In this document: positions 9,701 through 36,915 of the stretch, in pieces | Numbering within the stretch: the first letter of the stretch is position 1 | How the letters are laid out: every line of letters begins with the position of its first letter | Source of the DNA: Bacteroidota bacterium | GTDB taxonomy: Bacteria; Bacteroidota; Bacteroidia; Bacteroidales; UBA12077 | NCBI GenBank assembly: GCA_020049295.1 | Contig: JAIFLC010000131.1 | Coordinates: forward strand, 1-36,915 | Length of the DNA stretch: 36,915 nt | Reading direction: 5' to 3' | Made by a program: the position numbers and the translations under genes | The notes under the pieces: generated by a model | What the model was told of the DNA's origin: nothing | Databases searched by the model: none | Seen by the model: only the letters and a program-made list of their open reading frames with translations

Positions 9701-9923
9701 TTTCTTTGCATAAATCAAATTTAAAACCATCGAACCGGCATAAACCTTCACCTGTTCCAACCCAGATATAACCATTAATATCATTATTAATAGTATAAAC
9801 AAATGGGTGACTTAATCCGTCTTCGATATTGTATTGCTTAAATTGATATATCTGGCCTTTGGCCAAAGATGCAAAAGCAATAAATACTAAGGTTAACAGA
9901 AACCTTGATCGTAGGCAAAACAT
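6771..9923 (-). CDS. Regulator-propeller sensor with SpoIIE/PP2C phosphatase output
   Basis: The 1050-residue product has a signal peptide (1-23, cleavage before QIYQF) and a periplasmic double propeller with many regulator-propeller repeats (LWIGTEKNGIYQL, PWVATKSNGVFTL, IWASTYGDGVFKF). These are followed by a Y_Y_Y domain (about 665-730), one transmembrane helix (about 743-763), a short coiled linker (about 765-810) and a cytoplasmic SpoIIE-type PP2C domain (about 835-1050). Metal-binding motifs are intact: GDFYWYD near 841, CADSTGHGVPGAFM near 856, and MFSDGFTDQFGG near the end. The architecture is that of hybrid two-component sensors with the kinase replaced by a serine/threonine phosphatase, which usually acts on anti-sigma-factor antagonists. 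It is last in the T9SS operon, 20 bases after the unknown secreted-protein gene. No partner STAS or anti-sigma gene is nearby. Confidence 0.93.
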   Translation of the reverse strand: MFCLRSRFLLTLVFIAFASLAKGQIYQFKQYNIEDGLSHPFVYTINNDINGYIWVGTGEGLCRFDGFKFDLCKENDTLTNGFVSSSYLDKNGLLWFGHNSGDVTYYNGKEFKRLDSRKYLTSTVTDINSDDLGNVFISTQNNGLLRVNKQFQIDTFSVAFMGKIIYSIAYTGNSNYLVGCSDGLYLYKIEKKTIKKVLIINELSYIPIQSIENGQRENSFWIGTEDSGFYLIKFRDDFESYELVNFGEKYNLAFENIQSVLEDPEKTLWVSTFGKGVFKLISDPNKEYNYVRTIQFSTQNGLQNNFIKQVYQDWEGNYWIATYGNGIAFSSDEAFAFLYQDIAALNGNILSIEESENTVWLGGENVIARIDKATFEIKIIDQKNGLPKDKVVDLYLDKNKKLWIGTEKNGIYQLNIQNNNVLKYYGSTNSLENTINSITGTDENVYVATKNGILVFNLETGRRDLFGTSEGLPHNDIRYIYIDSYKNPWVATKSNGVFTLNDSLKYIIEGTIKLDFSSITEDLDGNIWASTYGDGVFKFSKDTIQYFSTDNGLKSNYCYSLIADNAGKIWVGHRLALSSIDTKTLEIKTYDKEIGITGDCNYNSLIKQESGVLLFGTTSGIIRYDSSKEKKSTTLPKVNISEILVSDVPYDINKSVYLPYGVYKLKISYVGLSFSDPNGVSYQYKLDGYDLEWSEITKDREIFYPRIEDGDFTFLLKACNADGVCVEEPIKLEISVKPPIWKTWWFILISIFTGIGLIVFYIKARERKQKAMQEYLETELKARTVEVVAQKELLEVKNRDITDSINYAQRIQQSILPSVNTINKYFSGAFVYYQPRDIVSGDFYWYDKVNEDKFMIVCADSTGHGVPGAFMSMIGTTLIKDICLRSNIKSPSEVLEMLDKDLQSTLNQNIDAERANDGMDIIVCEIDINTHYMRFASAMRPLIIYKGKKLQYVNGNRSSIGGDSKTIKKFENIGFQLEKGDIIYMFSDGFTDQFGGPRGKKFKIDRTKNMLADVCDKSLEEQQSHINKSFNDWRGNLHQVDDVLFMGVKI

Positions 9924-9943
9924 AATTTTTGCAATTTAAATGA

Positions 9944-10909
9944 TTACTCTTTCTTTTTAACTCCAATAGAATATTTATACTTTGGAACTCCTCCGATAGG
10001 TATTGTAAAGAATGGCAATAATTCGCCATACTGGTTTTTAACAGAAACTACCACGTTATTGTTTTTTACAGGAGGACTTTTCTTTTTAATAAACTGAAAA
10101 TCCAATGAAGTCCCAATCTCCTCTTCCAAAATCTTAAATTGATTTTGAGACCAAGTATCATCGCCAGATACAGCACATAATAATCCTTGCCTTGCTACAG
10201 AAACAACCCGAATAAGACCATCAGCATCCCAATCGAAATTCTTTTGCTCAACAGAAATAGTTCGGTCATCGATATATGGATAAATATGCGATACTTCGTT
10301 TGGATCGTTATGCATGCGGAAACTATACTCATAGGCAAATGCATTTGCCCCTTCGATTCGTTTATTTTCTGTACCCGAAGTACTAACAAAATAACGGTAC
10401 ATATTTCCATCGTCGCCTTCAACGCCTTCACATATAATTTTAAAAATATATCCGCCGTATTTTCTTACGAGTTCACCTTCTGTAGGATTAAACGGACCAA
10501 ATGTAAACCAATCATTGTCGTATCGTGGGTTTTCGCCAAAAACTCTTGTGGCCAGCATGTTCCCGCTTTTATAGTTTCCAATTGGGTCGACGCCTGTAGC
10601 CTCTTGATCTGTATAGCATTTTAATCCTCCATAAATAGTGTAGGAAATTTTTGTATCCCAAAAACCATTAATTTCATCCACTTCACCTCCAGCATCAGGA
10701 TCAAAAACTCTGATAAAGATGGGGCTTGTGTGCTCTTCGGGAATTACAAAGAAAAAAGTTTGCGAAAAATCATCATCTCCCCATGAGGTTGCTGCCTTTG
10801 GTCCAAAGGTCATCAGATGAGGAATGTTTTCGTCTTCAGCTGGCACCGGCTGTGCTTTTATGCCTGAATAAACAAAAAGAATCAGAATAAGTAAGAATAG
10901 TTTTTTCAT
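9944..10909 (-). CDS. Secreted protein of unknown function in the T9SS operon
   Basis: The 321-residue product has a clear signal peptide (MKKLFLLILILFVYSGIKAQ). The mature protein is rich in aromatic and acidic residues and probably all-beta, with IPHLMTFGPKAATSWGDDDF, FFFVIPEEHTSPIFIRVFDP, DAGGEVDEINGFWDT and DNDWFTFGPF near the front and basic residues at the end. I do not recognise a named domain. The frame is open to 10930, but the ATG at 10909 is preferred because it begins directly with the signal peptide. It lies 54 bases after the PD40-PKD gene and 20 bases before the propeller-phosphatase gene, and has a consensus promoter directly upstream. Placement suggests an envelope role beside PorP and the PD40-PKD protein. 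Confidence 0.75.
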   Translation of the reverse strand: MKKLFLLILILFVYSGIKAQPVPAEDENIPHLMTFGPKAATSWGDDDFSQTFFFVIPEEHTSPIFIRVFDPDAGGEVDEINGFWDTKISYTIYGGLKCYTDQEATGVDPIGNYKSGNMLATRVFGENPRYDNDWFTFGPFNPTEGELVRKYGGYIFKIICEGVEGDDGNMYRYFVSTSGTENKRIEGANAFAYEYSFRMHNDPNEVSHIYPYIDDRTISVEQKNFDWDADGLIRVVSVARQGLLCAVSGDDTWSQNQFKILEEEIGTSLDFQFIKKKSPPVKNNNVVVSVKNQYGELLPFFTIPIGGVPKYKYSIGVKKKE

Positions 10910-10929
10910 CACATTAAAATTTTCAATCA

Positions 10930-10961
10930 CAAAAATAATTTATCAAAGCACATATTACAAA
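10930..10961 (-). promoter_or_regulatory. Consensus internal promoter of the T9SS operon
   Basis: On the minus strand, TTTG (complement of 10958-10961), a 20-base spacer and TATTTTTG (complement of 10930-10937) form a full Bacteroidota primary promoter (TTTG-n19/21-TAnnTTTG). Transcription would start near 10923, about 14 bases before the ATG of the unknown secreted-protein gene. The -33 box is just beyond the stop codon of the PD40-PKD gene. Confidence 0.65.
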
Positions 10962-10963
10962 AA

Positions 10964-12418
10964 TTATTCCCTTCTTCCTCTTACATTCTGAGCAGGAAGA
11001 ACAACAATATTTTTAAATACACCCATTTTTTCTGCATTACCCTGTTTATCGGGCTTGCTGGCAACGCCAAGCTGAACGATATATTCACCGGGAGCTGTAT
11101 AGATATGAGTGGTTGAAATACCTCTAGTTCTTCTTCCATCACCCATATCCCAATGATATGTTTTTATATCAAAATTTTTCAGGTTTGTTCTTTTTCCGTC
11201 AAATTCAATTTCCTGACCAACAACGACTGTATCCGGACAATTAATATAAACCTGCTCAATATCTTCGACAGGAACCTGATATGCAGCCTCATTAAAGTAA
11301 ACATCTCCAGTCAGTCGATCAATAACATTTAATAATACGGTATATTCTCCAGGTCCAGTATAACAATGGTCTACTTCGTTACCCCGTATTTTGGTTCCAT
11401 CACCAAGATCCCATTCGTACATAAAGTTTAATGAATCGGGATTTTGAGCTCCTTCTTCATAAAAAACATAGCAATAGTTATTTACCTCCATTCGCTTTGT
11501 ATTTTCAAACATCGGATACAATACATTAAAGCTATAAATATCATCACTACGTTGCCTGTCAGACGAGAAAAATCCATCCTTTTTGAATGCATCAATAATA
11601 AATCCATAATCATCAAATCGCGAATTAATTGGCGGCTCCAAAGGTATTGGAGTAATCCATTCATTATTTACTTTCTCGGAATAGTATATATCTAATCTTC
11701 CAACACCTCCGGGTTTATCGGAAGAGAAATACAATCGCCCACTACTATGAATAAATGGGAAAACTTCATTTTGGAGTGTATTAATTTTGGGACCTAGATT
11801 TACTGGTTCGCTCCATCCCCCATTTTTCCATTCACACACGAATAAATCTGATCCTCCAAAACCACCTGGAATATCAGATGAAAAAAACAAGAAACTACCA
11901 TCTTCACTTAACGATGGATGAGCCAAATTATATTCCGGATTATTGTATTGAAATGATGTTGGTGCAACCCATTCACCATCCCTGTTTTGTTTCGAATAAA
12001 AAATGCCCAATTTGTTTTTTCTGTCTATAATATTGCCTATTCTCTTCTTGGTGTTAATATTTCTTGTAAAATAAACGGTATTCTGCCTGTCGTTAAAGGT
12101 TGCAGGACCTTCGTTAAAACTTGTCTTTATCTCTTTTGATAAAAATTTCACTTTCCCCCAGTTGGTTTTTCCTCCCTGTTCAACATAATACAGATTAAAG
12201 AGTGGTTTATCACTCCTATCATCAGTATAATTAATAAAAATTTCTCCTTTTCTATTCGAACAAAAAACTAATCCATCCTCGTAATAAACAGGTGAAAACT
12301 CATCATAGTATCTGGAGTTAAAAGGCAACTGAATAATTGAGTAATCTTGTCCCATGGTTATTGAAAACCATAACATAGCAAAAAAACTCAATATTAATTT
12401 ATTTTTAAATCCAATCAT
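10964..12418 (-). CDS. PD40 beta-propeller plus PKD-domain envelope protein
   Basis: The 484-residue product has a signal peptide (1-23, cleaved before QDYSIIQL). A WD40-like PD40 propeller (about 40-300) follows, with blades such as LFFSSDIPGGFGGSDLFVCE (about 175-195) and LYFSSDKPGGVGRLDIYYSE (about 225-245). Then come two PKD-type domains: YEWDLGDGTKIRG with GPGEYTVLLNV (about 330-376) and YHWDMGDGRRTRG with APGEYIVQLGV (about 418-456). It resembles the PorE/PD40 group that sits with PorP in T9SS loci, but there is no C-terminal OmpA-like peptidoglycan-binding domain; the PKD domains take that place. It starts 2 bases after the PorP gene stop, so translation is probably coupled. A role as a periplasmic partner of PorP at the cell surface attachment complex is inferred from family and order. 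Confidence 0.88.
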   Translation of the reverse strand: MIGFKNKLILSFFAMLWFSITMGQDYSIIQLPFNSRYYDEFSPVYYEDGLVFCSNRKGEIFINYTDDRSDKPLFNLYYVEQGGKTNWGKVKFLSKEIKTSFNEGPATFNDRQNTVYFTRNINTKKRIGNIIDRKNKLGIFYSKQNRDGEWVAPTSFQYNNPEYNLAHPSLSEDGSFLFFSSDIPGGFGGSDLFVCEWKNGGWSEPVNLGPKINTLQNEVFPFIHSSGRLYFSSDKPGGVGRLDIYYSEKVNNEWITPIPLEPPINSRFDDYGFIIDAFKKDGFFSSDRQRSDDIYSFNVLYPMFENTKRMEVNNYCYVFYEEGAQNPDSLNFMYEWDLGDGTKIRGNEVDHCYTGPGEYTVLLNVIDRLTGDVYFNEAAYQVPVEDIEQVYINCPDTVVVGQEIEFDGKRTNLKNFDIKTYHWDMGDGRRTRGISTTHIYTAPGEYIVQLGVASKPDKQGNAEKMGVFKNIVVLPAQNVRGRRE

Positions 12419-12420
12419 TA

Positions 12421-13344
12421 CTAAAAAAATCTAGGGCTTACAGCCATTATTTTATATTTAAATTCGTAACGCAAAATTATTTCAAACGAGCCACTATTCA
12501 TTCCTGCAAGATCGCCTGTAGCCATATCATATGATCCACCCAATCTAATCTGATCGTTGATCTGATATTCAAACATAAAAGCAATTTCATCATTATACCT
12601 ATAGGCAGCACCAATCCAGAAAACATTGTAAAAGATTAGGTTTCCACCGATATCAAGCTGAAAAGTATTATCGAGTCTGTAACGTACCAGGGTAGTTGGG
12701 CGAAATTTAAAAACATCTGATTTACCTAATAGAATTCCAGCAGAAAAAAGAAAATCATAGTTATTTACATTATTGTACATTACATTTTTCCCATTTTCCT
12801 GCTTATAACTCAAAAAAGATGGAATTGATGCTCCTAAATAAAAGGCATCGGTATAATAATACACGCCAAAGCCAACATTTGGTTGATATACGATCTCGTT
12901 TTCGCCCGACGAAAACTCTGGATCGTAAACTTCATCACCAGTTAACACATCCGAATAACTAGCTTGAACAATGGAGGTTCCAGCTTTTAATCCAAGTGCA
13001 AATTTACCTCCTCCCAGTTTAAAGCGAAATGCATAATTTCCGTAAATATCGTAATTATGTGAAATTCCTATTTTTTCGTGAAAAAGCAATAATCCAACAG
13101 AATGCTGTTCATTAAGCAAAGGAGCGTGACTGCTAATTGTTTGGGTTACGGGTGCTCCTTCGAAACCAATCCATTGATTACGATACATAACCGAATTACT
13201 AAAACACTCACGGCTTCCGGCATATGCGGGATTTATTGCTAACCCGTTAATCCAGTACTGACTGTACAAGGGTGTATATCGTTGCCCAGACAATGAAAGA
13301 GTTGCCAAAACGAATAATAGTATATGAATTAATCGCCTAATCAT
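12421..13344 (-). CDS. PorP/SprF family outer-membrane protein
   Basis: The 307-residue product has a signal peptide (MIRRLIHILLFVLATLSLSG) followed by the PorP/SprF hallmark QYWINGLAINPAYAGSRE, then alternating beta strands of an outer-membrane barrel ending YEFKYKIMAVSPRFF. PorP/SprF proteins are partners of type B T9SS cargo: SprF is needed for SprB export in Flavobacterium johnsoniae. The frame stays open upstream to 13485, but the ATG at 13344 is chosen: it directly precedes the signal peptide and overlaps the end of the cargo gene by 8 bases (ATGATTAG), a standard coupling arrangement. The adjacent type B cargo gene is its expected client. The next gene starts 2 bases beyond its stop. 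Confidence 0.93.
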   Translation of the reverse strand: MIRRLIHILLFVLATLSLSGQRYTPLYSQYWINGLAINPAYAGSRECFSNSVMYRNQWIGFEGAPVTQTISSHAPLLNEQHSVGLLLFHEKIGISHNYDIYGNYAFRFKLGGGKFALGLKAGTSIVQASYSDVLTGDEVYDPEFSSGENEIVYQPNVGFGVYYYTDAFYLGASIPSFLSYKQENGKNVMYNNVNNYDFLFSAGILLGKSDVFKFRPTTLVRYRLDNTFQLDIGGNLIFYNVFWIGAAYRYNDEIAFMFEYQINDQIRLGGSYDMATGDLAGMNSGSFEIILRYEFKYKIMAVSPRFF

Positions 13345-16300
13345 TCCCTTGTCCTTTAAGAATAATAAAACCTTTTTCGTTATGAGTTTTATTCTCGAAA
13401 TCAGTATAATTAAAAATATAAAAATATGTATCTTCAGGTAGCATCTTTCCTTTCTTTTTTCCATCCCAGTATTCTCCTTTACCATAATCTTTCATACGAT
13501 AAACTTCTGTACCCCACTTGTTATATATTATCAGTTCGTTTGTTATGCTGTTATGACTCCCTTTAATAACAAAAACATCGTTTATACCATCACCATTTGG
13601 AGAAAATCCTGTTGGTAATAATAAATCTTTAAGAGTTAATATTATTGTATCTGGAATAATAGGACAACCAGGTTTGTTGATATAAAAAATTATTTCAATA
13701 TTTTCTTTATAATGCCCGCCCAAGCCACTAACAATTGCGGTAGCAGAATCGTAATCAACCTGTCCAGGGTCGGATGCAAATACTTTTTCCCAAAACAATT
13801 CAGTTTCGCTTAACTTAATAATATCAGGATATGTAACTTGTCCAAAGATTTGATGATCTGTTTCGTAGTGTAATGTAGTATCGGAACCAGCATTGACTGA
13901 CGCCTTACGATATAAAAGAATTTCAACATAAGCAGAATCGGTACATTGCCAGTTAGTTTCCTTCCACTTTAAAGTATATGTTCCAGAGACATCGATATGC
14001 ATTGGCGAATTAAAAAGTGTGTCATCATCAAAAATAATTATTCCAGGGCCATTGACCTGACTCCAAAAGCCTTTTCCTAGTGATGGTGTAGCATTAAGAA
14101 CATAGGTAGTGTCGCAAATTTCATCATCGATTCCAGGATCTGAAACCGGCCAACCATAAACTAATACTTTTATTTCACCAGCAATATTTGTGGCCATACA
14201 TCCGTTTATATCTTTAAGAGAATCGATGCTGTAGGTATATTGTTTACTTGTTATTAACGATTCCGGGTTCACAGAAATTAATGTGTTTGCTGTATTAATT
14301 GATCTTTGATGAGATAAAAATCCATCATAATAATACAATATATACGGACCTGTTCCTGAAGTTACTAAAAGATCTAAGTCTATCTGTTGCTGACTGCATA
14401 TAGTTGTATCTAAATCAGAAAATGCTGCAATTGGTAATGGCCAGATATCAACAATTATTAAACTGCTAATATTTGTACAGCAATCATTGATTCCTGAGTT
14501 TACAATTCTTCTGTAATATTTTTTTTCGGTTTGAGCAACTGGCTGATAATCTTTGTTTGTTGAATTTTCTAAAATATTTTCCCAAGTTAAATTATCACTG
14601 CTAATTTGCCATTGGTAGCGATATATACCATCACCTCCAACGGGATTAGATCCAACAAGCAGATCAAAAGGAATTTCATAACAGGTATAATTTAAAGCCC
14701 CATTTTCAATTGCATTTGAACCTATAAGTGGCAACACATTTATTTTATGAGGAATACTATAATCTTCGCAATCACCTGAAATAACTCCTCTTCTATAATA
14801 AATTGTTTCAACAAGATTTGATGGAACAAAATCTTTACGGATAGAATCATTTATTATTTGCCAATTAATTCCATCAGGACTCTGCTCCCAAAAGTAACTG
14901 TAGGACCCTATACCAAGTCCATTTGCCGGTAATTGGCCAATAATGGGTTCAGGAATTTGTGCGTTGCAAATCTCTTGATTATCAGGAAGAATATTATTTA
15001 TAATTTTTGGTAATCCTACAATTTCAACTGTATCACTATATGAAAAACAGGCACCAGATGCCACTTTTCTGCGATAAAATGTTGTATCTGAAATTATTCC
15101 ACCCCAACAAACCGTATCATTTACAGGACTAATTGTGTTCCAGCTCGCTTGGTTAAAACTTGATTGCCATAAATAATTATAAATCCCTGATCCATCACCT
15201 CCAATAGATACGGTTGTTCCGAAGAGAGTATCGGCAGAGTTATCAATGCAAATAGTATCTAGTCCCCAAATGTGATTTCCTTCAATTTTTTTATGAATAT
15301 AAATTCCGATTGCAAGACTAGTATCTACAACACCAGCAGAGCTAACTATTCGTCTATAATAAGTAGTATCATAAAGTGCAGGTGGTTGCAAATCTCTTCG
15401 TATAGAGTCGACAATTATACTCCAGCTTGTATAGTTTGTTTTCTGTTGCCATTGGTAAACAAATGTTCCATCACCGCCTTTTGGCATAGAACCATGGATT
15501 ATATGAGGCGCATCACCAATACATATTTTTTGATTTTCGAGTATTGAATTAAAAAGAAAGCCTGTTAGCGGAACAGAATAATTATTTCGAGAAGTTCCAG
15601 GATTTCCGTCTGTAGCTCCAAATGTTATTGTACCTGGCAGGTCTGAAATATAACCAGCTTTACCAGCGTTAGTTTGTGCCTTAAACTTAGAATCAAAACT
15701 TGATAACCCATTTAGAATTATTCCGCCACCACCGCCACCACCTGGTCCTGAAGTATATATCCCTTGAGTATTACCACCATTGCCTCCTTTAACCGAGAGT
15801 ATAAGATCAGACTCAACAGTCTCTACATCGATTACAATTACACCTCCTCCTCCTCCTCCTCCTCCAGAGGCCGTTGCAGGATCTGTAACGGATTGGCCAT
15901 CGGTAATAATTCCAAAACCATTCGGTTTAACATAATTTGACAAGATTATAGCTATTCCGCCTCCATTTCCTCCATTTGAAGCGACCAGAGCGCTAGTATA
16001 TGTTCCTGACCCTCCTCCTCCACCCAGAAAGATAGTTGAATCAGTAAAAAGCATAGGGCTGGTAAATTCTTGGCCACCTCTGCCACCAATACCTAGCCAT
16101 GGAGCAGTATCAATAGGTATTCCTGGCGGATCGTAAATTATTTCTCCTATATATTCTGGGGTAATACAGGTTGTAGAATCCTCTTTACCACCTAATCCAC
16201 CTCTACCGGCATTACTTCCACCACCACCACCAGCAAAACGAGCATTACCACCACCACCACCGTTCGACCATCTTCCTAATCCTTTTGCATATGCAATTAC

Positions 16301-28827: not shown

Positions 28828-29256
28828 ATGAAAAACATATTCGTTGGTCTTGTTGCATTGTTAACTATTTCGTTTTCGGCTTTTAGCCAGGACGAAATTA
28901 AAACAAACAAAGACGATAAGAATTTACCAGAAATATTCTTCGAAAAGACAGTACATGACTATGGTGTAATAAAATACAATGGAGATGGAACCTGTGAGTT
29001 TACTTTTAAAAACATTGGAAAAGAGCCTTTATTATTAACTCAGGTTCAGGCTTCATGTGGTTGCACAACACCAACATGGCCTAAAGAGCCTATTAAACCA
29101 GGTGAAAAAGGTACTATTGTTGTTAAATATAACACCAAAATCACAAAAGCATTTTCAAAAAGTATCCGTGTTTATTCAAATGCAAAAACAGCTTTAGTTT
29201 CGCTTACAGTTAAAGGAACAGTTGAAGAAAAACAATCCGATCCAGTAAATAAATAA
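28828..29256 (+). CDS. DUF1573 secreted protein
   Basis: The 142-residue product has a signal peptide (MKNIFVGLVALLTISFSAFS, cleaved before QDEIK) and one DUF1573 domain of immunoglobulin-like fold. Its motifs are FEKTVHDYGVIKYNGDGTCE, FTFKNIGKEPLLLTQVQASC followed by GCTTPTWP, then IKPGEKGTIVVKYNTK and a last strand ending TVKGTVEE. The CGC pair (SCGCTTP) is the strongest family hallmark and may bind metal or form a disulfide. The domain is very common in Bacteroidota envelopes, in one to many copies; its function is unsettled. The aminotransferase gene begins 20 bases later and is likely co-transcribed. Confidence 0.92.
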   Translation: MKNIFVGLVALLTISFSAFSQDEIKTNKDDKNLPEIFFEKTVHDYGVIKYNGDGTCEFTFKNIGKEPLLLTQVQASCGCTTPTWPKEPIKPGEKGTIVVKYNTKITKAFSKSIRVYSNAKTALVSLTVKGTVEEKQSDPVNK

Positions 29257-29276
29257 CTTTTAATAAAACTAGTATT

Positions 29277-30476
29277 ATGCCTCAAATTTCAGACAAAGGG
29301 AAATTAATGCCTGCATCTCCCATAAGAAAACTGGTGCCATACGCAGAAGAAGCGAAAAAGAAGGGTGTTAAAGTATATCATCTGAATATTGGACAACCTG
29401 ATATTCCAACACCCGAAGTTGCTCTAAATGCCATTCGCAATATAAACGAAAAAGTTATTGAATATAGTCATTCTGCAGGTAACGAATCGTATCGTAAAGG
29501 CCTGGCAAAATACTATCAGAGTGTTGGTATTACTGTTGATCATAATGAAATGATTATCACTACTGGTGGATCAGAAGCTATTACCATTGCTTTTTTGTCA
29601 ACTCTTAATCCTGGTGATGAGGTAATTATTCCTGAGCCATTTTATGCAAACTATAATGGTTTTGCTGTTTCGACGGGTGTTGTGGTTAAACCAATCACAT
29701 CGTATATAAAAAATGATTTTGCATTACCAGCAATTGAAGAATTTGAAAAACTGATTACTCCTAAAACCAAAGGAATTGTTATTTGCAATCCAAACAATCC
29801 AACCGGATATTTGTATTCAGAAAGTGAATTGCAGCAGCTAAAAACCATCATTAAAAAATATGATTTGTATTTATTTTCAGATGAGGTTTATCGTGAGTTC
29901 TGCTACGATGGGAATGCTCATTTCTCAGCAATGAATTTAAAAGGGATTGAAAACAATGTAATTTTATTGGACTCTGTATCGAAACGATATAGTATGTGTG
30001 GGGTACGCGTTGGTGCTTTAATTACCAAAAACAAAGAAATTCTTTCTGCCGCGATGAAATTTGCTCAGGCACGACTTTGCCCACCATCCTTTGGACAATG
30101 GGCCAGTGAAGCAGCCTTAAATACTCCTAAAGAATATTTTACCGAAGTTTACAATGAGTATATTGGTCGCCGTAACTTTATGGTTGAAGCATTAAATAAA
30201 ATGGAAGGTGTTTATTGCCCAAAACCAAAAGGAGCTTTTTACACGGTAGTTAAATTGCCTATTGATGATGCCGATAAGTTTGCACAATGGTTACTCACCG
30301 ATTTTGAATACAATAAACAAACGGTAATGGTTGCTCCTGCAACAGGATTTTATGCAACTCCCGGTTTAGGTAAAAATGAAGTAAGGATAGCATATGTTTT
30401 GAAAAAAGAAGACCTAGCCCATGCCATGGAAACCCTCGAATTTGCCTTAAAGCAATATCCAGGAAGAACGGTTTAA
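29277..30476 (+). CDS. PLP-dependent aminotransferase, class I/II (aspartate aminotransferase-like)
   Basis: The 399-residue cytoplasmic enzyme belongs to the class I/II aminotransferases. Motifs seen: NIGQPDIPTPEVAL (38-51), YSHSAGNESYRKGLAKYY (63-80), ITTGGSEA (94-101), NPNNPTGYLY (171-180), SDEVYREF (201-208), the PLP lysine Lys236 in DSVSKRYSMCGVRVGAL, and the carboxylate-binding arginine in the C-terminal NEVRIAYVL. The usual lysine-motif glycines are preserved. Substrate cannot be read from sequence; aspartate or another amino acid with 2-oxoglutarate is the family default. It is closed by a hairpin terminator 21 bases after the stop. Confidence 0.93.
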   Translation: MPQISDKGKLMPASPIRKLVPYAEEAKKKGVKVYHLNIGQPDIPTPEVALNAIRNINEKVIEYSHSAGNESYRKGLAKYYQSVGITVDHNEMIITTGGSEAITIAFLSTLNPGDEVIIPEPFYANYNGFAVSTGVVVKPITSYIKNDFALPAIEEFEKLITPKTKGIVICNPNNPTGYLYSESELQQLKTIIKKYDLYLFSDEVYREFCYDGNAHFSAMNLKGIENNVILLDSVSKRYSMCGVRVGALITKNKEILSAAMKFAQARLCPPSFGQWASEAALNTPKEYFTEVYNEYIGRRNFMVEALNKMEGVYCPKPKGAFYTVVKLPIDDADKFAQWLLTDFEYNKQTVMVAPATGFYATPGLGKNEVRIAYVLKKEDLAHAMETLEFALKQYPGRTV

Positions 30477-30496
30477 TTACCTTATTTTAACATTTG

Positions 30497-30527
30497 AACA
30501 GCGGGGTTACTTATCCGCTGTTTTTTT
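30497..30527 (+). terminator. Rho-independent terminator after the aminotransferase gene
   Basis: An 8-bp stem (AACAGCGG at 30497-30504 and CCGCTGTT at 30515-30522) with a 10-base loop is followed by a run of T residues ending at 30527. Confidence 0.9.
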
Positions 30528-30600
30528 ATGTCTTATCTCAAAAAGAAAACAATATATTATTAAAGCATATTTTTACAGTCATTATATAAGTTGATTTTTT

Positions 30601-30608
30601 TATCTTTG
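30601..30608 (+). promoter_or_regulatory. -7 promoter box of the putative porin gene (TATCTTTG)
   Basis: TATCTTTG matches TAnnTTTG and is identical to the era -7 box. It lies 5 bases before the porin ATG, so the leader would be very short or absent. No -33 TTTG at the usual distance. Confidence 0.45.
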
Positions 30609-30613
30609 CCAGC

Positions 30614-32779
30614 ATGAATAGAAAAATACTGGTAATTTTCATAATTTTTAGTTTTTTCACTTTTGATTTATCTGGTCAGATTGATAGTTTGTCTGAAAGA
30701 TTACTCTATAACTGGACAATTAATCCGTTTGGTTTAAATCCAGATTATGCGGATATTGATACAAGCCTTAATGAATTTCAAAAATTCAATCCTTTATTAC
30801 GAAGTACCATTAATAATAATTATTTAGGAAACCTGGGGTCTGCTTCACAATCAACTATTTATTATGACCGAAGAAATAACGAAACTAGTTTCTTATTTAG
30901 TGAACCATATGCTATTTATTTTCTTTTACCATACGAGCATAAGTATTTTAATACAAAGAGACAATTTACAGTAATAAACTATAGTTCAGCGGGACCAAAA
31001 GAAGAGAGCGAGCAGTTTTTAGGTGTTTTACATACTCAAAATGTGACAGAAAATTTCAATGTAGGATTGGGTTATGACTTAACATCATCAGCTGGTCGGT
31101 ATCTAAATCAAAGAACAAAAATACATTCTGCAACTCTATTTTCAAGTTACAAGTATAAAGGATACAATATTTCTGGAAATTATACATTGAATAAAGGAAA
31201 TATTGAGGAAAATGGAGGATTAGATAGTTTATGGTACTTAGGGAGCAAGGAATATACCAGGGCACTTACTATTCCTGTTAAGCTTAGCGATGCAAGCTCA
31301 AAAATACTAAATTCAAGTTTTTATTTGGCTCAGGAATTTAGATTTGGAAAACACGCTGATGCTGAAAGCGATAAAAAGACATCTCTTCCTGCCAGTGAAA
31401 AAAGATCTACAAATCAGAGAGATAAAGAGAGAAAACAACCTGAGTTTAAGAAACCAGGCAAAATAAGCAATCCTGTTACTGATACAATTAGTAAAATAAC
31501 AGAAATTGGTGATGAAACAAAAATTGAAAATCAGGAAATAGTGGTAAAAGATACCATAACCAATAAAAAAGATGAAGAAAGTAAAAATTCTTTTTTACGT
31601 GATTCTTATAATAAACTGAATGATTTTAGCATTTCGCATGAGTTAAATTATAGCAATGACTACAGGAAGTTTTCAGATTCAGATATTGAAGAGAGCTTTT
31701 ACAATAGTTTTGACTCACTAATAAGCAATACAAAAACAAGCGATGCTGTTTTTCAAAACCGGTTTGGAAACAAATTTTCGGCTCATTATCGTTATAAAGA
31801 CCTTTTAAATTTTCGAATATCATACTACAATGAGCAGATAAATTATGAATACAATATTTTACCTGATACCACCTTTATTTTTAACTCACAAGATCAGCCT
31901 GAAGATACTATTTTAACAAGGTATCTTAAAAATGATTTCTCAAACAACAGTGTTTCGGTGTACATGCAAAGCATGATATTTAATCATATCCTCTTTAAAG
32001 GATTTGCTGAATATTTTATTACTGGATATAAAAAAGAGAACTCTCGAATTAATCTTACTTTAGGATATCGGCTATTTCAGGATATACGGTTTGATCTTGA
32101 AGGAGAATATAAGAATCAAAGACCTGATTACTTTTATGAACAATTTCAGTCAAATCATTTTAGTTGGGACAATAATTATCTTATTCGAAAAGAAGAGTGG
32201 GATGCAAATGTTATTATTAAATCAGAAAAATACAGATTTGATTTAAGTGCAGGTTATGGCCAGATTACTGGACATATTTATCTCGATACGTTGGCCAGAG
32301 TGCAACAATATGCTGATCAGATTAATATTCTTACAGCAAGGGCAAATAAAAAATTCACCTTAGGGCCTTTCCATTCAACAACAAAATTCGTTTACCAGAC
32401 CAGTTCTATGGATAGTATATTAAGTATCCCAGAAATAAATTTATACCAATCGTTATATTATGAGAAGCTATTCCATTTCTCATCAACAGGAGGTGAATTA
32501 AGAATGCAGTTAGGGTTTGATTATCGCTATTCGAGCAGTTATTATGCTGATGGATATATGCCTATCACGGGTTTGTTTTATCGTCAATTCGATCAAAAAA
32601 TGGCTGATTATCATTGTGTTGATATTTTTTTAAATTTTGCAATCAAAAGAGCCCGATTATATCTGGTTTACAACTACCTAAACACTGCTATTAATGATTC
32701 TTATTACTTTACCTCGCCCTCATACCCTGCACCACCCGCTGTATTTAAATTTGGTATATCATGGACATTTTATGATTAA
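30614..32779 (+). CDS. Putative_porin family outer-membrane beta-barrel protein
   Basis: The 721-residue product has a signal peptide (about 1-21, ending DLSGQ) and matches the Bacteroidota Putative_porin family (PF14121). FNPLLRSTINNNYLGNLGSA is followed by an outer-membrane barrel of many amphipathic strands: FTVINYSSAGPKEESEQFLG, LHTQNVTENFNVGLGYDL and a series of FRISYYNEQ-like strands. The last strand is FKFGISWTFYD, ending in an aromatic residue as barrel termini usually do. A charged, low-complexity insert at about 245-330, rich in Lys, Glu and Asp, interrupts the strands and is probably a large surface or periplasmic loop. No substrate can be named. It precedes the MltF-like gene by 63 bases; a shared transcript is likely. 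Confidence 0.8.
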   Translation: MNRKILVIFIIFSFFTFDLSGQIDSLSERLLYNWTINPFGLNPDYADIDTSLNEFQKFNPLLRSTINNNYLGNLGSASQSTIYYDRRNNETSFLFSEPYAIYFLLPYEHKYFNTKRQFTVINYSSAGPKEESEQFLGVLHTQNVTENFNVGLGYDLTSSAGRYLNQRTKIHSATLFSSYKYKGYNISGNYTLNKGNIEENGGLDSLWYLGSKEYTRALTIPVKLSDASSKILNSSFYLAQEFRFGKHADAESDKKTSLPASEKRSTNQRDKERKQPEFKKPGKISNPVTDTISKITEIGDETKIENQEIVVKDTITNKKDEESKNSFLRDSYNKLNDFSISHELNYSNDYRKFSDSDIEESFYNSFDSLISNTKTSDAVFQNRFGNKFSAHYRYKDLLNFRISYYNEQINYEYNILPDTTFIFNSQDQPEDTILTRYLKNDFSNNSVSVYMQSMIFNHILFKGFAEYFITGYKKENSRINLTLGYRLFQDIRFDLEGEYKNQRPDYFYEQFQSNHFSWDNNYLIRKEEWDANVIIKSEKYRFDLSAGYGQITGHIYLDTLARVQQYADQINILTARANKKFTLGPFHSTTKFVYQTSSMDSILSIPEINLYQSLYYEKLFHFSSTGGELRMQLGFDYRYSSSYYADGYMPITGLFYRQFDQKMADYHCVDIFLNFAIKRARLYLVYNYLNTAINDSYYFTSPSYPAPPAVFKFGISWTFYD

Positions 32780-32842
32780 CTTGCATTGTAACAATGTTAA
32801 AATAATATCGTAAATTACCTTGTTAAACCAAATCAGATTAAT

Positions 32843-34276
32843 TTGAAAGTAGTTACTTCTTTCGTCAAGTTTACAGTACTTTCCATTATAGTATTCATCC
32901 TATTATTGGGATGTAACCGATTGCAACACAAAAAACCAGAAGAGATTAACTCGTTAGAAAAAATTAAGAAGAATGGAAAAATAACCGCACTTTTTGATTT
33001 TAATTCGACCAATTATTTTATTTACAAAGGTGAGCCAATGGGTTACCAATATGAAATGCTAAGGCTACTTGCAGATCATTTGGGTGTAAAGTTAGAAGTG
33101 GTCGTAGAAAACGATATAAGTAAGTATTTCGATATGCTTAATAACTATCAATGTGACATATTAGCAGTAAATCTAACAGTAACTAAAGAACGAAATGCAG
33201 AAATAGATTTTACCCTACCCCACAGTCAAACAAGACAGGTACTTGTTCAGCGCAAACCCGAAAACTGGAATAAACTTACCGAACGCGAATACGAATCGAT
33301 GCTAATAAGAAATCAGCTCGATTTAGCAGGAAAAACAATCTATGTTCAGAAAGAATCATCTTATTTATCGAGGTTGCAAAATTTATCCGACGAAATTGGA
33401 GCTATTATAAATATTAAACAACTAGATGATCTGGAGGTTGAACAATTGATTCAGCTTGTAGCTAAAGGTGAAATAGATTATACCATTTCCGACGAAAATG
33501 TGGCATTGGTAAATCAGACCTATTACCCTATTATTGATGTTCAAACCGCCATTAGCTTTCCACAAAATCAGGCATGGGGATTAAGAAAAGGAGATGATTC
33601 GTTGCGCATTGAAATAAATAAATGGATAGAGGGAAACAAGTATTCACGTGATTACAATCTTCTATATGCCAAGTATTTTAAGAATAAAAGATCTGTTGGA
33701 ATTGTCGAAAGCGATTATTATGCTCAAACGAGTGGAAAAATCTCAGTTTATGATGATTATATTAAAGAATATTCAAAAATTGTGGATTGGGATTGGCGAT
33801 TATTAGCATCCTTAATTTATCAGGAATCAAGGTTCGATCCATCAGTAAAATCGTGGGCTGGAGCTTACGGTTTAATGCAGTTAATGCCAACAACAGCACA
33901 CAGATATGGAGTTGATCTAAAATCTGCTCCAAATGAGCATATTAGAGCGGGTGTAAGATTTATTAACTGGCTTAACAAGCGATTTGAAAAAAACGGAATA
34001 AAAGATGAGCATGATAGAATTAAATTTATACTTGCATCTTATAATGTAGGTTTAGGCCATGTTTTAGATGCTCAGCGTTTAGCAGAAAAATATGGCAAAG
34101 ATCCCAAAAAGTGGGATGGGAATGTAGACGAATATATTATAAAAAAATCAAATCCAAAATACTTCCTTGATCCTGTGGTAGAATATGGTTACTGTCGGGG
34201 TGACGAAACATATAGTTATGTATCTCAAATAATTGACAGATACGAGCACTACAAAAATTTTATTGAAGAAGATTAG
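32843..34276 (+). CDS. MltF-like membrane-bound lytic transglycosylase
   Basis: The 477-residue product is a lipoprotein (signal peptide ending LLLGC, Cys24). It has an N-terminal periplasmic solute-binding domain (SBP_bac_3, about 40-275; GEPMGYQYEMLRLLADHLGV, CDILAVNLTVTKERNAEIDF) and a C-terminal SLT/lysozyme-like domain (about 305-470). The catalytic glutamate is Glu328 in YQESRFDP, followed by GAYGLMQLMPTTAHRYGVD and ILASYNVGLGHVLDA. This is the MltF architecture; such enzymes cleave peptidoglycan between MurNAc and GlcNAc, forming anhydro-MurNAc ends. The start is a TTG at 32843: the next in-frame ATG would remove the signal peptide. It overlaps the convergent Nudix gene by 17 bases at their 3' ends. 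Confidence 0.93.
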   Translation: MKVVTSFVKFTVLSIIVFILLLGCNRLQHKKPEEINSLEKIKKNGKITALFDFNSTNYFIYKGEPMGYQYEMLRLLADHLGVKLEVVVENDISKYFDMLNNYQCDILAVNLTVTKERNAEIDFTLPHSQTRQVLVQRKPENWNKLTEREYESMLIRNQLDLAGKTIYVQKESSYLSRLQNLSDEIGAIINIKQLDDLEVEQLIQLVAKGEIDYTISDENVALVNQTYYPIIDVQTAISFPQNQAWGLRKGDDSLRIEINKWIEGNKYSRDYNLLYAKYFKNKRSVGIVESDYYAQTSGKISVYDDYIKEYSKIVDWDWRLLASLIYQESRFDPSVKSWAGAYGLMQLMPTTAHRYGVDLKSAPNEHIRAGVRFINWLNKRFEKNGIKDEHDRIKFILASYNVGLGHVLDAQRLAEKYGKDPKKWDGNVDEYIIKKSNPKYFLDPVVEYGYCRGDETYSYVSQIIDRYEHYKNFIEED

Positions 34277-34889
34277 TATCTAATCGGGCTATAATTTCTA
34301 AGAACTCTGATAATATCATTGCTGTAGCTCCCCATATAACCAAGTTGTCTGGTTTATAAATTGGGGCATCAAATTGCACTGTCCCAAATGTAAATTGTTT
34401 GCTCGATTTATTTTCAGGATTCATTAAATCCAATAATCTAATCTCCAAAACTTTTTCAACTTCGTTTAAATCAGCATTAAAAACAGGTGATGATTTGTAT
34501 CGTCCAACAACCGGTTGAACAAAATAATTGCTAACAGAAATTTGCAAAGGAGTAAGTGATCCGAGTATTTCTATCTCATCCGGATTGGCTCCTATTTCTT
34601 CATAACTTTCGCGTATAGCGGTTTGAACAAGTGTTTTGTCATGATCTTCAAATTTCCCTCCAGGTAAAGAAATTTGTCCACTATGAGGTCCATCGTAAGC
34701 CGAACGTTGAATAAGCACCAGATTTATTTCCTGATTATTAAGGTATAATAAAATCAATACTCCTGCTCTAAGACCCTTGCCATTTACTCCAACAGGCCTT
34801 GCTTCCGGTGCCATTTTAAGCTGTGCCGATAATCCAGGGAGTTTTTTTTCTAACTCTTTTCTAAGATCATCAAAGAAATCCGAATGCAT
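34260..34889 (-). CDS. Nudix hydrolase, coenzyme A pyrophosphatase type
   Basis: The 209-residue product belongs to the CoA-diphosphatase (NudL/YeaB-type) Nudix hydrolases, which cleave CoA and its derivatives to phosphopantetheine and 3',5'-ADP. Motifs: LVLIQRSAYDGPHSGQISLP immediately before GGKFEDHDKTLVQTAIRESY with EEIGA (the Nudix box), then GSLTPLQISVSNYFVQPVVG and IWGATAMILSEFLEI. The frame is open upstream to 34946 inside gatD; the ATG at 34889 (MHSDFFDDLRKEL) is preferred because it avoids overlap and lies 13 bases after the gatD stop. The three minus-strand genes gatE-gatD-Nudix are therefore packed as one operon. A metabolic link to GatDE is not evident. Confidence 0.9.
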   Translation of the reverse strand: MHSDFFDDLRKELEKKLPGLSAQLKMAPEARPVGVNGKGLRAGVLILLYLNNQEINLVLIQRSAYDGPHSGQISLPGGKFEDHDKTLVQTAIRESYEEIGANPDEIEILGSLTPLQISVSNYFVQPVVGRYKSSPVFNADLNEVEKVLEIRLLDLMNPENKSSKQFTFGTVQFDAPIYKPDNLVIWGATAMILSEFLEIIARLDTNLLQ

Positions 34890-34902
34890 TGATATCTTTT
34901 TA

Positions 34903-36288
34903 TTATTTTCTGAATTTTTTAATAAAACTTTCAACCTCCGGAACACCTCCCTGATAAATCAAATACCCATTATAGGGTTCCTTTAGGGTTGTTTCATCAT
35001 TAATAGGAGTTAACATAAGCTTTTTCACTTCCTCGCGATCATTTGTCTGGCCAAGAGCCCATCCCAGCTTAATATATGCAACTTCGGGCAACATATTTTC
35101 GGCAGGAATAATTCCTTTATCCATCAAATCACGGCCTGTATCATAAACAAACATATTTACAAAGCCCCATAAGGTTTGAACAGTCATGTAAATATGTACT
35201 CCCTTTTTAGTGGCTCTCTCGATTGCGGGGTATAAGGGTTTATTAATATGCCCAAGCCCTGTTCCAGCAATGATGATCCCTTTATATCCATTTTCAACCA
35301 ACGAATCAATCATATCGGGTTGCATATTTGGGTAATAATATACAATTGCGACTTTCTCTTCGAAGTAGGGTAAAATTTTAACTTTTCTGTCCTTTCTGCG
35401 ATGGTTATATTCTGTTTTAATTGGTGTAACGCTTCCACGACGAACAGTTGCCAAAGGAACATCACTAATAGTTCTAAAAGTTGATCGGTATGATGAATGC
35501 ATTTTGCGAACCCTTGTACCACGATGCAAAAACCCATATTCATCAGATGTAGGACCAAACATGCAAACCATAACTTCGGCAATATCTGAATGACCAGCTG
35601 CATAAGCAGCATGCATTAAATTTAATGCTGCATCTGATGAAGGTCTGTCGGATGATCGTTGTGAACCAACCAGAATTATTGGAACAGGTGAATTTTGAAT
35701 CATAAATGTAAGAGCAGCTGCTGTATGACCTAAGGTATCGGTGCCATGCCCGATAATGATTCCATCAATTCCGTTTTCAATTTCTTTACCAATGGCAATT
35801 GCTAATGCCTTATATTGCTCAGGGCCCATATTTTCGCTGAACACAGCAAATAGTTTTTCTGTTGTCAGGTTGCAAATATCAGCTAATTCGGGAACTGCTC
35901 CATAAAGCTCGCCAGGCGAAAAGGCCGGAATAACAGCTCCTGTGCGATAATCAAGTCGAGAAGCAATTGTTCCCCCTGTACCCAAAAGTTTAACACTGGG
36001 TTTACCTTTTGTATATGGAAATTCTTTCTCGGGAATTTTATAATTGGCTTTCTGGTAACCCGTTTCTTTCATATCCTGAATGGTTTCGATGTCGATACCA
36101 ATATTATAACCAGTTGCGATTTTTAATACAATATGCTTATCATCATCGGTTTCGGATCGAGGCAAAACGGTACCTTTAAAACTACCTCTTGTTGTGACAA
36201 TATTTGTCTGTCCCCAAACCCGAACATTATATTTTTTTAGTACCTCTAGTGATTTACCTTTATATCCCTGGAAAATATCTTCGCTCAT
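34903..36288 (-). CDS. gatD: Glu-tRNA(Gln) amidotransferase subunit D (archaeal-type)
   Basis: GatD is the asparaginase-like subunit that releases ammonia from glutamine or asparagine for GatE, which amidates Glu-tRNA(Gln). The 461-residue product has the GatD-specific N-terminal domain (about 1-90): YKGKSLEVLKKYNVRVWGQ, then GSFKGTVLPRS and TGYNIGIDIETI. The asparaginase domain follows with GTGGTIASRLDYRTGAV (Thr107), HGTDTLGHTAAALTFM (Thr183, Asp184), GSQRSSDRPSSDAALNL and HRGTRVRKMHSS (Lys262). These are the four catalytic positions of Methanothermobacter GatD in their expected contexts. Plain bacterial asparaginases lack the N-terminal domain and the YRTGAV and RSSDRPSSDAA signatures. It overlaps gatE by 29 bases and is followed by the Nudix gene. 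The presence of the partner gatE makes a free asparaginase unlikely. Confidence 0.95.
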   Translation of the reverse strand: MSEDIFQGYKGKSLEVLKKYNVRVWGQTNIVTTRGSFKGTVLPRSETDDDKHIVLKIATGYNIGIDIETIQDMKETGYQKANYKIPEKEFPYTKGKPSVKLLGTGGTIASRLDYRTGAVIPAFSPGELYGAVPELADICNLTTEKLFAVFSENMGPEQYKALAIAIGKEIENGIDGIIIGHGTDTLGHTAAALTFMIQNSPVPIILVGSQRSSDRPSSDAALNLMHAAYAAGHSDIAEVMVCMFGPTSDEYGFLHRGTRVRKMHSSYRSTFRTISDVPLATVRRGSVTPIKTEYNHRRKDRKVKILPYFEEKVAIVYYYPNMQPDMIDSLVENGYKGIIIAGTGLGHINKPLYPAIERATKKGVHIYMTVQTLWGFVNMFVYDTGRDLMDKGIIPAENMLPEVAYIKLGWALGQTNDREEVKKLMLTPINDETTLKEPYNGYLIYQGGVPEVESFIKKFRK

Positions 36289-36915
36289 TGTAATGTATTT
36301 TAATTTTTGATAAAATTATTTTTCTTCGATGGCCATAAAAAGCTACTTGTATTTCTCTAAACTTTTGCTTTAAAAAAGGAACCTTTGATAATATTTCTTC
36401 CTTGGGTACTTGTTTAAAATTAATGCTTGTAAGCAACGAATTGAAATCCATTTTTGGATATTGGTATAGAGTTGGTAACATCCTTTTTGCAAGGGTTATC
36501 TCTAAATTTTTATCGATTAAAAACTTAAACAATTCAAAGATTTTATCATAATTGAAAGTATCGGCTGACTTATAATGCCCTTCGACAAATTTAAGCCTGT
36601 GACCAATAAAAGAACCAACAAACTTAGGATCAAGTTTTAGTTTAGTTACTATTTTCTCAATTAATGGATACAAGTTATTCCTGAAAATATAAGTGTAGGT
36701 ATCTTCCGGGACATTCCATTGTTTAAGTTGATTATATCTGTCAATTATATCTGTGGGCACATTTTTACTCAGTTTCTTAATATACTCATTTTCGAGAGGA
36801 ATTGGAGCCGAATCGGTATCGGGGTACATTCGATCTGCACCAGGAAGTACTCGTTCGAAAATAGTTGTTCCATTGGTAAGGGCTTTTCGTGTTTCTTTTG
36901 GAACCCCTTCGAATG
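36260..36915 (-). CDS. gatE: Glu-tRNA(Gln) amidotransferase subunit E (archaeal-type), 5' part outside the window
   Basis: The last 218 codons of a minus-strand gene are seen, entering from the right edge. The first visible residues read FEGVPKETRKALTNGTT, followed by LPGADRMYPDTDSAPIPL, the hallmark GatB/GatE segment in its archaeal GatE form (GVPxETRKAL...LPGAxRMYPxTDxxPI). After it comes an all-helical tail (about 180 residues) corresponding to the GatE helical/YqeY-like region that binds tRNA(Gln). The last 30 or so residues (from about QVAFYGHRRKI) are basic and do not show the glycine-rich end I expect from archaeal proteins, so the extreme C-terminus may be divergent. The stop overlaps gatD by 29 bases. 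The catalytic kinase/amidase half lies outside the window. GatB is excluded by the GatD partner and by the motif wording. Confidence 0.92.
   Translation of the reverse strand, partial: FEGVPKETRKALTNGTTIFERVLPGADRMYPDTDSAPIPLENEYIKKLSKNVPTDIIDRYNQLKQWNVPEDTYTYIFRNNLYPLIEKIVTKLKLDPKFVGSFIGHRLKFVEGHYKSADTFNYDKIFELFKFLIDKNLEITLAKRMLPTLYQYPKMDFNSLLTSINFKQVPKEEILSKVPFLKQKFREIQVAFYGHRRKIILSKIKIHYNERRYFPGI

Follow-up and report, generated by a model that had tools for sequence, protein, structure and literature searches.

The DNA analysed here, called the window, is the whole 36,915-nt contig JAIFLC010000131.1 of a Bacteroidota bacterium of the order Bacteroidales. Its end carries gatD and part of gatE, the genes of the two subunits of the tRNA-dependent amidotransferase GatDE. 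Our preferred reading, with a probability of roughly 0.55, is that they belong to a true bacterial GatDE whose amidation of Glu-tRNA(Gln) is an additional route or a clean-up step beside glutaminyl-tRNA synthetase (GlnRS). Judged by sequence, the pair has the family membership, intact active sites and domain layout of GatDE, a native position, purifying selection and co-occurrence with GlnRS. The window is contig C166 of a metagenome-assembled genome (MAG; G000) of 209 contigs and 2.96 Mb, 78.63% complete and 2.68% contaminated. The gatE gene is divided between the window and a second contig, C87, and is compared below with a genome of the same genus, G514. The features are:

34903..36288, minus strand: gatD, complete, encoding the 461-residue glutaminase subunit with the GatD N-terminal domain and a Thr/Thr/Asp/Lys active site.
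36260..36915, minus strand: 3' part of gatE, the C-terminal third of the kinase/transamidase subunit, running off the contig end.
36260..36350, minus strand: out-of-frame 3' end of gatE, arising from an 80-bp gap relative to G514 and overlapping the start of gatD by 29 bp.
Contig C87 (6728 bp), L004 5164-6726: 5' part of gatE, 521 codons up to the contig end.

With the two NCBIfam GatD equivalogs, the window's GatD reaches 500.9 and 498.2 bits (cut-offs 310 and 324), and it contains the GatD_N domain (Pfam PF18195). Among asparaginase models it passes the type I subfamily only (374.1 bits, cut-off 260.5), and the GatD models outscore every asparaginase model. Its closest solved structures by sequence are two archaeal GatDs; 1zq1_A and 2d6f_A are the best structure matches of its AlphaFold2 model, which is of low confidence (mean predicted local distance difference test, pLDDT, 64.1). 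Residues Thr107, Thr183, Asp184 and Lys262 align with T101, T177, D178 and K254 of Methanothermobacter (M.) thermautotrophicus GatD, which we take to be the catalytic residues, and all four positions are identical in 98 of 98 aligned GatDs, the window's and two archaeal ones included. Model scores, PF18195 and residue identity thus bear out the GatD signatures claimed in the original prediction, namely the N-terminal domain and these four residues. Grouping with ordinary asparaginases, which would have told against it, was not found: a type I or type II L-asparaginase was ruled out by the higher GatD model scores, the GatD_N domain and the top rank of GatD structures. The bacterial GatD differs from the archaeal one in ending with a conserved stretch past the end of the archaeal chain.

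The gatE open frame in the window (36260..36913, minus strand, 217 residues) is open at the contig end and covers positions 400-577 of the 630-position GatE model. At 93.5 and 70.1 bits, this fragment remains below the curated cut-offs; it contains the GatE motifs first quoted for it. The C87 part alone reaches 364.6 bits with TIGR00134 (cut-off 319.55) and 414.8 bits with NF003107, under that model's cut-off of 456 because the gene part is incomplete. The two contig ends overlap exactly over 91 bp. Past the overlap, 81 bp (27 codons) of the window are missing from C87, and 152 of the next 157 bp are identical; the difference looks like an assembly branch between near-identical strains, or a strain variant. 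The stretch missing in C87 (window 36739-36824 versus L004 6567-6571) holds the conserved motif PDTDSAPIPL. Near window position 36350, 80 bp are absent relative to G514, and about the last 30 GatE codons are out of frame by the MAFFT gap placement; the gap may be real or an assembly fault. The asnS gene of G000 is also split between two frames (G000:C204:7897-9205), a second sign of small assembly frame errors. The original claim of two adjacent minus-strand genes with GatD and GatE signatures therefore stands for both families and their motifs, but gatE is truncated by the contig end and disturbed over its last codons.

GatE residues E13, H15, E157, E158 and E184 (M. thermautotrophicus numbering), presumably active-site residues, are the same in all 139 sequences compared, two of them archaeal. 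A gatE lacking its amidotransferase/kinase residues, a possible refutation, was accordingly not found among the residues checked. GatE and GatB are homologous, and GatE scores better on GatE than on GatB models. One relative (L036) aligns with archaeal GatE 2d6f_C over residues 33-650, the C-terminal domain included. The AlphaFold2 model of another (L038; mean pLDDT 72.7) is confident in the C-terminal helical region and below 50 in parts of the catalytic cradle; its structure matches are 1zq1_C and 2d6f_D/C first, then GatB and, weakly, AspRS (E 0.04 and above). By these comparisons the bacterial GatE has the AspRS-like insert and the C-terminal helical and tail domain of its family.

The same-genus genome G514 (98% complete, 40 contigs) holds in one piece an ABC permease gene, gatE (661 residues, L147 8448-10433), gatD (461 residues) and a NUDIX gene; its complete gatE reaches 409.1 bits with TIGR00134. 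Contigs C87 (permease, gatE) and C166 (gatE, gatD, NUDIX) together give this four-gene order. The G514 block lies within a few kb of glutamine synthetase, valS, DUF1573 and aminotransferase genes, all of which are also on C166. Because gene order and neighbours are shared, the two contigs belong together and gatDE is, on comparative grounds, native to this Bacteroidales genome; at first look the surrounding genes had been described as ordinary Bacteroidota ones. Relative to the aminotransferase side, the four-gene block has opposite orientations in the two genomes (window 28828-34276 versus G514 L147 3611-12489), and in this comparison porin and transglycosylase genes lie between the gatDE block and the aminotransferase gene.

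An assembly or binning artefact that placed archaeal DNA in a Bacteroidota bin is highly improbable. The MAG's 209 contigs, its 2.68% contamination and the local assembly breaks would allow for one, but G514 carries the same block near shared neighbours and relatives occur in 80 listed loci and in 63 genomes of the order. A composition break near gatDE, proposed at the outset as a sign of contamination, was sought by G+C content in 1-kb steps: the value is 0.402 at window positions 35001-36000 versus 0.280-0.387 in the other listed steps, without a sharp break. The G514 neighbourhood rules out contamination as the source of gatDE.

Between G000 and G514, the rate of nonsynonymous substitution (dN) is 0.060 for gatD and 0.086 and 0.111 for the two parts of gatE, with the synonymous rate (dS) near or at saturation. 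Reference values of dN are 0.104 for valS, 0.065 for the aminotransferase gene and 0.36 for the NUDIX gene. By these estimates gatDE is under purifying selection, with dN at the level of valS. The NUDIX gene, directly after gatD (window 34260-34946), evolves far faster than gatD and is found in only 10 of 81 loci.

Species genomes scanned with a GatE alignment yielded at least 562 relatives among 583 pattern matches. The best 80, which were listed, are by record title nearly all Bacteroidales or Bacteroidetes, with two Candidatus Aminicenantes; isolates among these 80 are Perlabentimonas gracilis, two Labilibaculum and Marinifilum flexuosum. GatE exceeds the TIGR00134 cut-off in 63 of 149 genomes of the same order and in 30 of 395 genomes of the phylum, the latter being G000 and 29 of other classes; no genome of the same class or order besides G000 passed in the phylum draw. 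The order and phylum searches drew different genomes, and the distribution of carriers is uneven. The model was also over cut-off in 4 of 14 control genomes. In the class of G403, whose record title reads Candidatus Aminicenantes, 41 of 80 genomes passed. We take that class as Aminicenantia by record titles only; NCBI places a Candidatus Aminicenantes organism in the phylum Candidatus Aminicenantota. Two loci with Aminicenantes titles (L055 and L061) had been suspected of mis-binning for having three synthetase matches per bin, a suspicion dropped after the 41 class genomes passed. Viral contigs gave 15 pattern matches with no relative among them. The suggestion of an under-noticed bacterial branch is upheld by this wide group in Bacteroidota and at least one further bacterial class. 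With 63 carriers in 149 genomes, the window's case is also common in the order and no exception, which could not be told from the sequence of the window.

The two genes mostly travel together. Within the stretches analysed, 68 of 80 Bacteroidales-type and 28 of 29 other-class loci have a gatD downstream of gatE, and all 17 loci of G403's class have one beside it; a few pairs stand as much as about 2 kb apart. Of the 12 Bacteroidales-type loci without gatD, 8 reach the end of the contig or locus within 1.3 kb. In the other four (L054, L077, L103 and L106), no gatD follows in the 4.3-9.7 kb beyond gatE. The neighbourhood is otherwise little conserved: the next gene families occur in 17, 14, 11, 11 and fewer of 81 loci, and no third family occurs in more than 17.

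The place of the bacterial sequences was assessed with quick trees, supports being Shimodaira-Hasegawa-like approximate likelihood ratio test (SH-aLRT) values; archaeal sampling was three GatEs (two PDB chains and one Natrinema plasmid) and two GatDs, and L034, Natrinema and the archaeal and outgroup rows were flagged as long branches. In the GatE tree, with GatB as outgroup, the three archaeal sequences fall on one side (99). The bacterial sequences form a Bacteroidales clade (100, stem 1.6 changes per column) and an other-class clade (97), with L034 unplaced. The GatD tree has one bacterial clade (100) apart from the two archaeal rows, its outgroup being a single very long asparaginase. A second GatE tree added 17 sequences of G403's class, kept 19 of 29 other-class rows and omitted Natrinema and the GatBs. 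Here G403's class occurs in both bacterial types, with nine of its rows in that of the other classes and ten in that of the Bacteroidales. These ten branch off early or form the closest sister group, and the Bacteroidales sequences are nested among them (support 98 for the 24-row clade and 99 for the sister group; stem of the Bacteroidales type 1.28 changes per column). The simplest reading of these trees is one bacterial GatDE family with transfer between Bacteroidales and G403's class, probably towards Bacteroidales. On the same reading, one further transfer went from Bacteroidales to G156, a genome of another class. Its locus (L036) has a GatD 83% identical to the window's and a GatE inside the Bacteroidales clade, by transfer or bin contamination. 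The comparison of GatD and GatE with archaeal and bacterial homologues proposed in the original prediction thus separates the bacterial sequences from the few archaeal ones. Of its two options, an old transfer or a bacterial branch, the branch is supported, with transfers between bacteria on top. Because archaeal sequences are so few, we give no direction of transfer between the domains.

In enzymes of this family, GatD hydrolyses glutamine, the ammonia passes to GatE, and GatE phosphorylates and then amidates the tRNA-bound glutamate. The preferred reading has the bacterial proteins do the same: GatD would free ammonia from glutamine, and GatE would phosphorylate and amidate glutamate carried on tRNA. 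The substrate would be Glu-tRNA(Gln), made by glutamyl-tRNA synthetase (GluRS) in small amounts or under some conditions. GatDE would then complement GlnRS, by a parallel route or by clean-up, and would recognise tRNA in a way suited to the bacterial U1-A72 tRNA(Gln). Formation of the complex, the amidation reaction, its substrate and the back-up role are what we infer here.

The setting in which GatDE would act was drawn from searches for other routes to the amide tRNAs. G000 has one GlnRS (772 bits, cut-off 425.8) and one GluRS of bacterial type. A genome with GlnRS is the case for which the original prediction offered a back-up role or a different substrate, the two leading readings here as well. 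The search for GatCAB, proposed along with that for GlnRS, found no amidase or GatA in G000, and the sole GatB_N match is GatE itself. Across 76 genomes, GatA is over cut-off in 22, all of them among the 29 other-class carriers; none of the 29 Bacteroidales-type carriers and none of the 18 non-carriers of the order passes. Sub-cut-off amidase matches in 8 of the 29 Bacteroidales-type carriers were taken as other amidases. AsnRS is over cut-off in 73 of the 76. From these matches, GatDE appears to be the sole tRNA amidotransferase in the 29 Bacteroidales-type carriers tested, and such carriers appear, with few exceptions, to charge both amide tRNAs directly. Since GatA is over cut-off in none of the 29, there would be no other known tRNA amidotransferase to repair Glu-tRNA(Gln) in them.

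Several observations weigh against the preferred reading. GlnRS is over cut-off in 93 of 102 distinct carriers (49/54 and 44/49), and an archaeal-style pathway therefore does not look needed. All 15 tRNA(Gln) genes examined are U1-A72, whether from carriers (10) or non-carriers (5); none is from G000, one of 7 of 19 genomes in which the tRNA(Gln) pattern search had no match. Archaeal GatDE recognises A1:U72 and the D-loop of tRNA(Gln), according to part of a review (PMC9499178). Neither trait of the archaeal pathway is thus seen here: G000 has GlnRS, and A1:U72 occurs in none of the 15 tRNA(Gln) genes, which show no co-adaptation with GatDE either. The C-terminal region of GatE, the tail of which contacts the tRNA elbow in archaea (PMC4810234, seen in excerpt), is just 16% identical between Bacteroidales and other-class GatEs. 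The GluRS gives no help: the Arg358 site is Arg in 18 of 18 genomes, including two without GlnRS, so it was dropped as a discrimination marker and says nothing on mischarging of tRNA(Gln) by GluRS. A GatB-like match also occurs in seven of the 63 carriers in the order (G427, G431, G468, G502, G506, G543 and G546), and the gatE copy in the window loses its frame towards the 3' end. The GatB-like genes of those seven are open frames of about 480-490 residues; GatCAB and GatDE may coexist there, and none of the seven was in the GatA test. In G514, a second tRNA(Gln) with a CUG anticodon, an encoded CCA and a longer D-loop (L138 1294-1369) lies just upstream of the usual UUG tRNA(Gln).

A serious rival, which fits almost as well as clean-up of Glu-tRNA(Gln) and which we nevertheless hold to be the less likely, is a changed substrate: GatDE of the Bacteroidales type would keep its chemistry but act on a small molecule or on a different acylated tRNA, leaving the synthesis of Gln-tRNA(Gln) to GlnRS alone. 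The presence of GlnRS in 93 of 102 carriers and the single type of tRNA(Gln) in carriers and non-carriers are as this would predict, and the low dN of gatDE agrees with it. So do the length of the stem that leads to the Bacteroidales-type GatEs (1.6 and 1.28 changes per column) and the contrast between the catalytic cradle, 63% identical between Bacteroidales and other-class GatEs, and the C-terminal region at 16%. However, other-class and M. thermautotrophicus GatE also differ widely in that region (21% identity), and a low value therefore does not by itself imply a new substrate. Moreover, both archaeal PDB sequences have 96 residues in common with at least 95% of 48 bacterial GatEs, mainly in the cradle, and no common neighbour gene hints at another pathway. 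A broader formulation, which we hold tentatively and at somewhat under even odds, gives the Bacteroidales type a role other than bulk Gln-tRNA(Gln) synthesis, through another substrate or conditional repair of misacylated tRNA, under selection of housekeeping level beside GlnRS. In that case GatDE would not be a mark of archaea: a large clade of bacteria would have it too, and its two GatE types would span at least two bacterial phyla, the second of them identified by record title.

Two further readings are less probable still. That the genes are leftovers, GatD serving mainly as a cytoplasmic glutaminase or asparaginase while GatE is on its way out, is improbable. It would account for the patchy occurrence (63 of 149 genomes of the order), for the 4 of 80 loci without gatD in 4.3-9.7 kb downstream and for the disturbed 3' end of the window's gatE. 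But the checked GatE residues are identical in all 139 sequences, gatE has dN at the valS level, GatD keeps its specific N-terminal domain and model match, and the pair mostly stays together. Yet more doubtful is GatDE as the main source of Gln-tRNA(Gln) in some carriers, together with a non-discriminating GluRS. Nine of the 102 carriers have no GlnRS over cut-off (G314, G287, G251, G402, G408, G577, G587, G596 and G612), and three of these are nearly complete (G314 and G287 99%, G251 98%). Those three, however, have GatA over cut-off, so GatCAB can do the work there. G402 and G577 show GlnRS fragments, and G596, without any synthetase of the GlnRS/GluRS family, is probably incomplete. G408 is a 1.4-Mb genome, and similarly distant GatDs (68-70% where listed) occur in G565, G566, G568 and G569, which have GlnRS. 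The GatA test did not include G408, G577, G587, G596 and G612. The genomes G314 (locus L010) and G287 (locus L011) combine GatDE, GatA and a GatB-like gene with a G73 tRNA(Gln).

Among known systems, archaeal GatDE (M. thermautotrophicus, 2d6f; Pyrococcus abyssi, 1zq1) has the same two subunits, domains and active-site residues and gives the best sequence and structure matches. Unlike it, the bacterial sequences branch apart and live beside GlnRS and a U1-A72 tRNA(Gln). Bacterial GatCAB, whose GatB is the homologue of GatE, carries out the same type of reaction; it differs in that G000 has no amidase or GatA, while many other-class carriers hold both systems (GatA in 22/29). In Bdellovibrio, Deinococcus and Thermus, GatCAB is kept beside AsnRS and GlnRS and makes asparagine on tRNA(Asn), as stated in an excerpt of PMC4206432. 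An amidotransferase is thus retained there too despite direct synthetases, GatCAB in those genera and GatDE here.

Reviews of 2021-2022, as far as their consulted passages go, describe GatDE as archaea-only (PMC8007984, PMC8762117, PMC9499178). One of them outlines the amidotransferase reaction and calls GatDE an archaeal signature protein (PMC8762117); another uses the archaea-only distribution in arguments on the last universal common ancestor and on archaea never taking up GlnRS (PMC9499178). In the available part of a 2014 survey of bacterial GlxRS (PMC3927822), GatCAB is tabulated and the word GatDE is absent. Titles and abstract openings of the open-licence literature mentioning GatDE name no bacterial carriers. 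Bacterial GatDE is probably annotated in databases, to go by NCBIfam naming, and not discussed in the open-licence literature searched. A wide bacterial group, mostly beside GlnRS, changes the archaea-only distribution, and statements on occurrence need correcting. It also offers a test case for what an amidotransferase does when bulk aminoacylation has no need of it. Cultured carriers (Marinifilum, Labilibaculum and Perlabentimonas) would let gene deletion separate the GatDE and GlnRS routes.

Elsewhere in the window, positions 6771-20815 hold type IX secretion-like genes: PorP/SprF, a CHU_C signal protein, a PKD/PD40 protein and two large sensor proteins.

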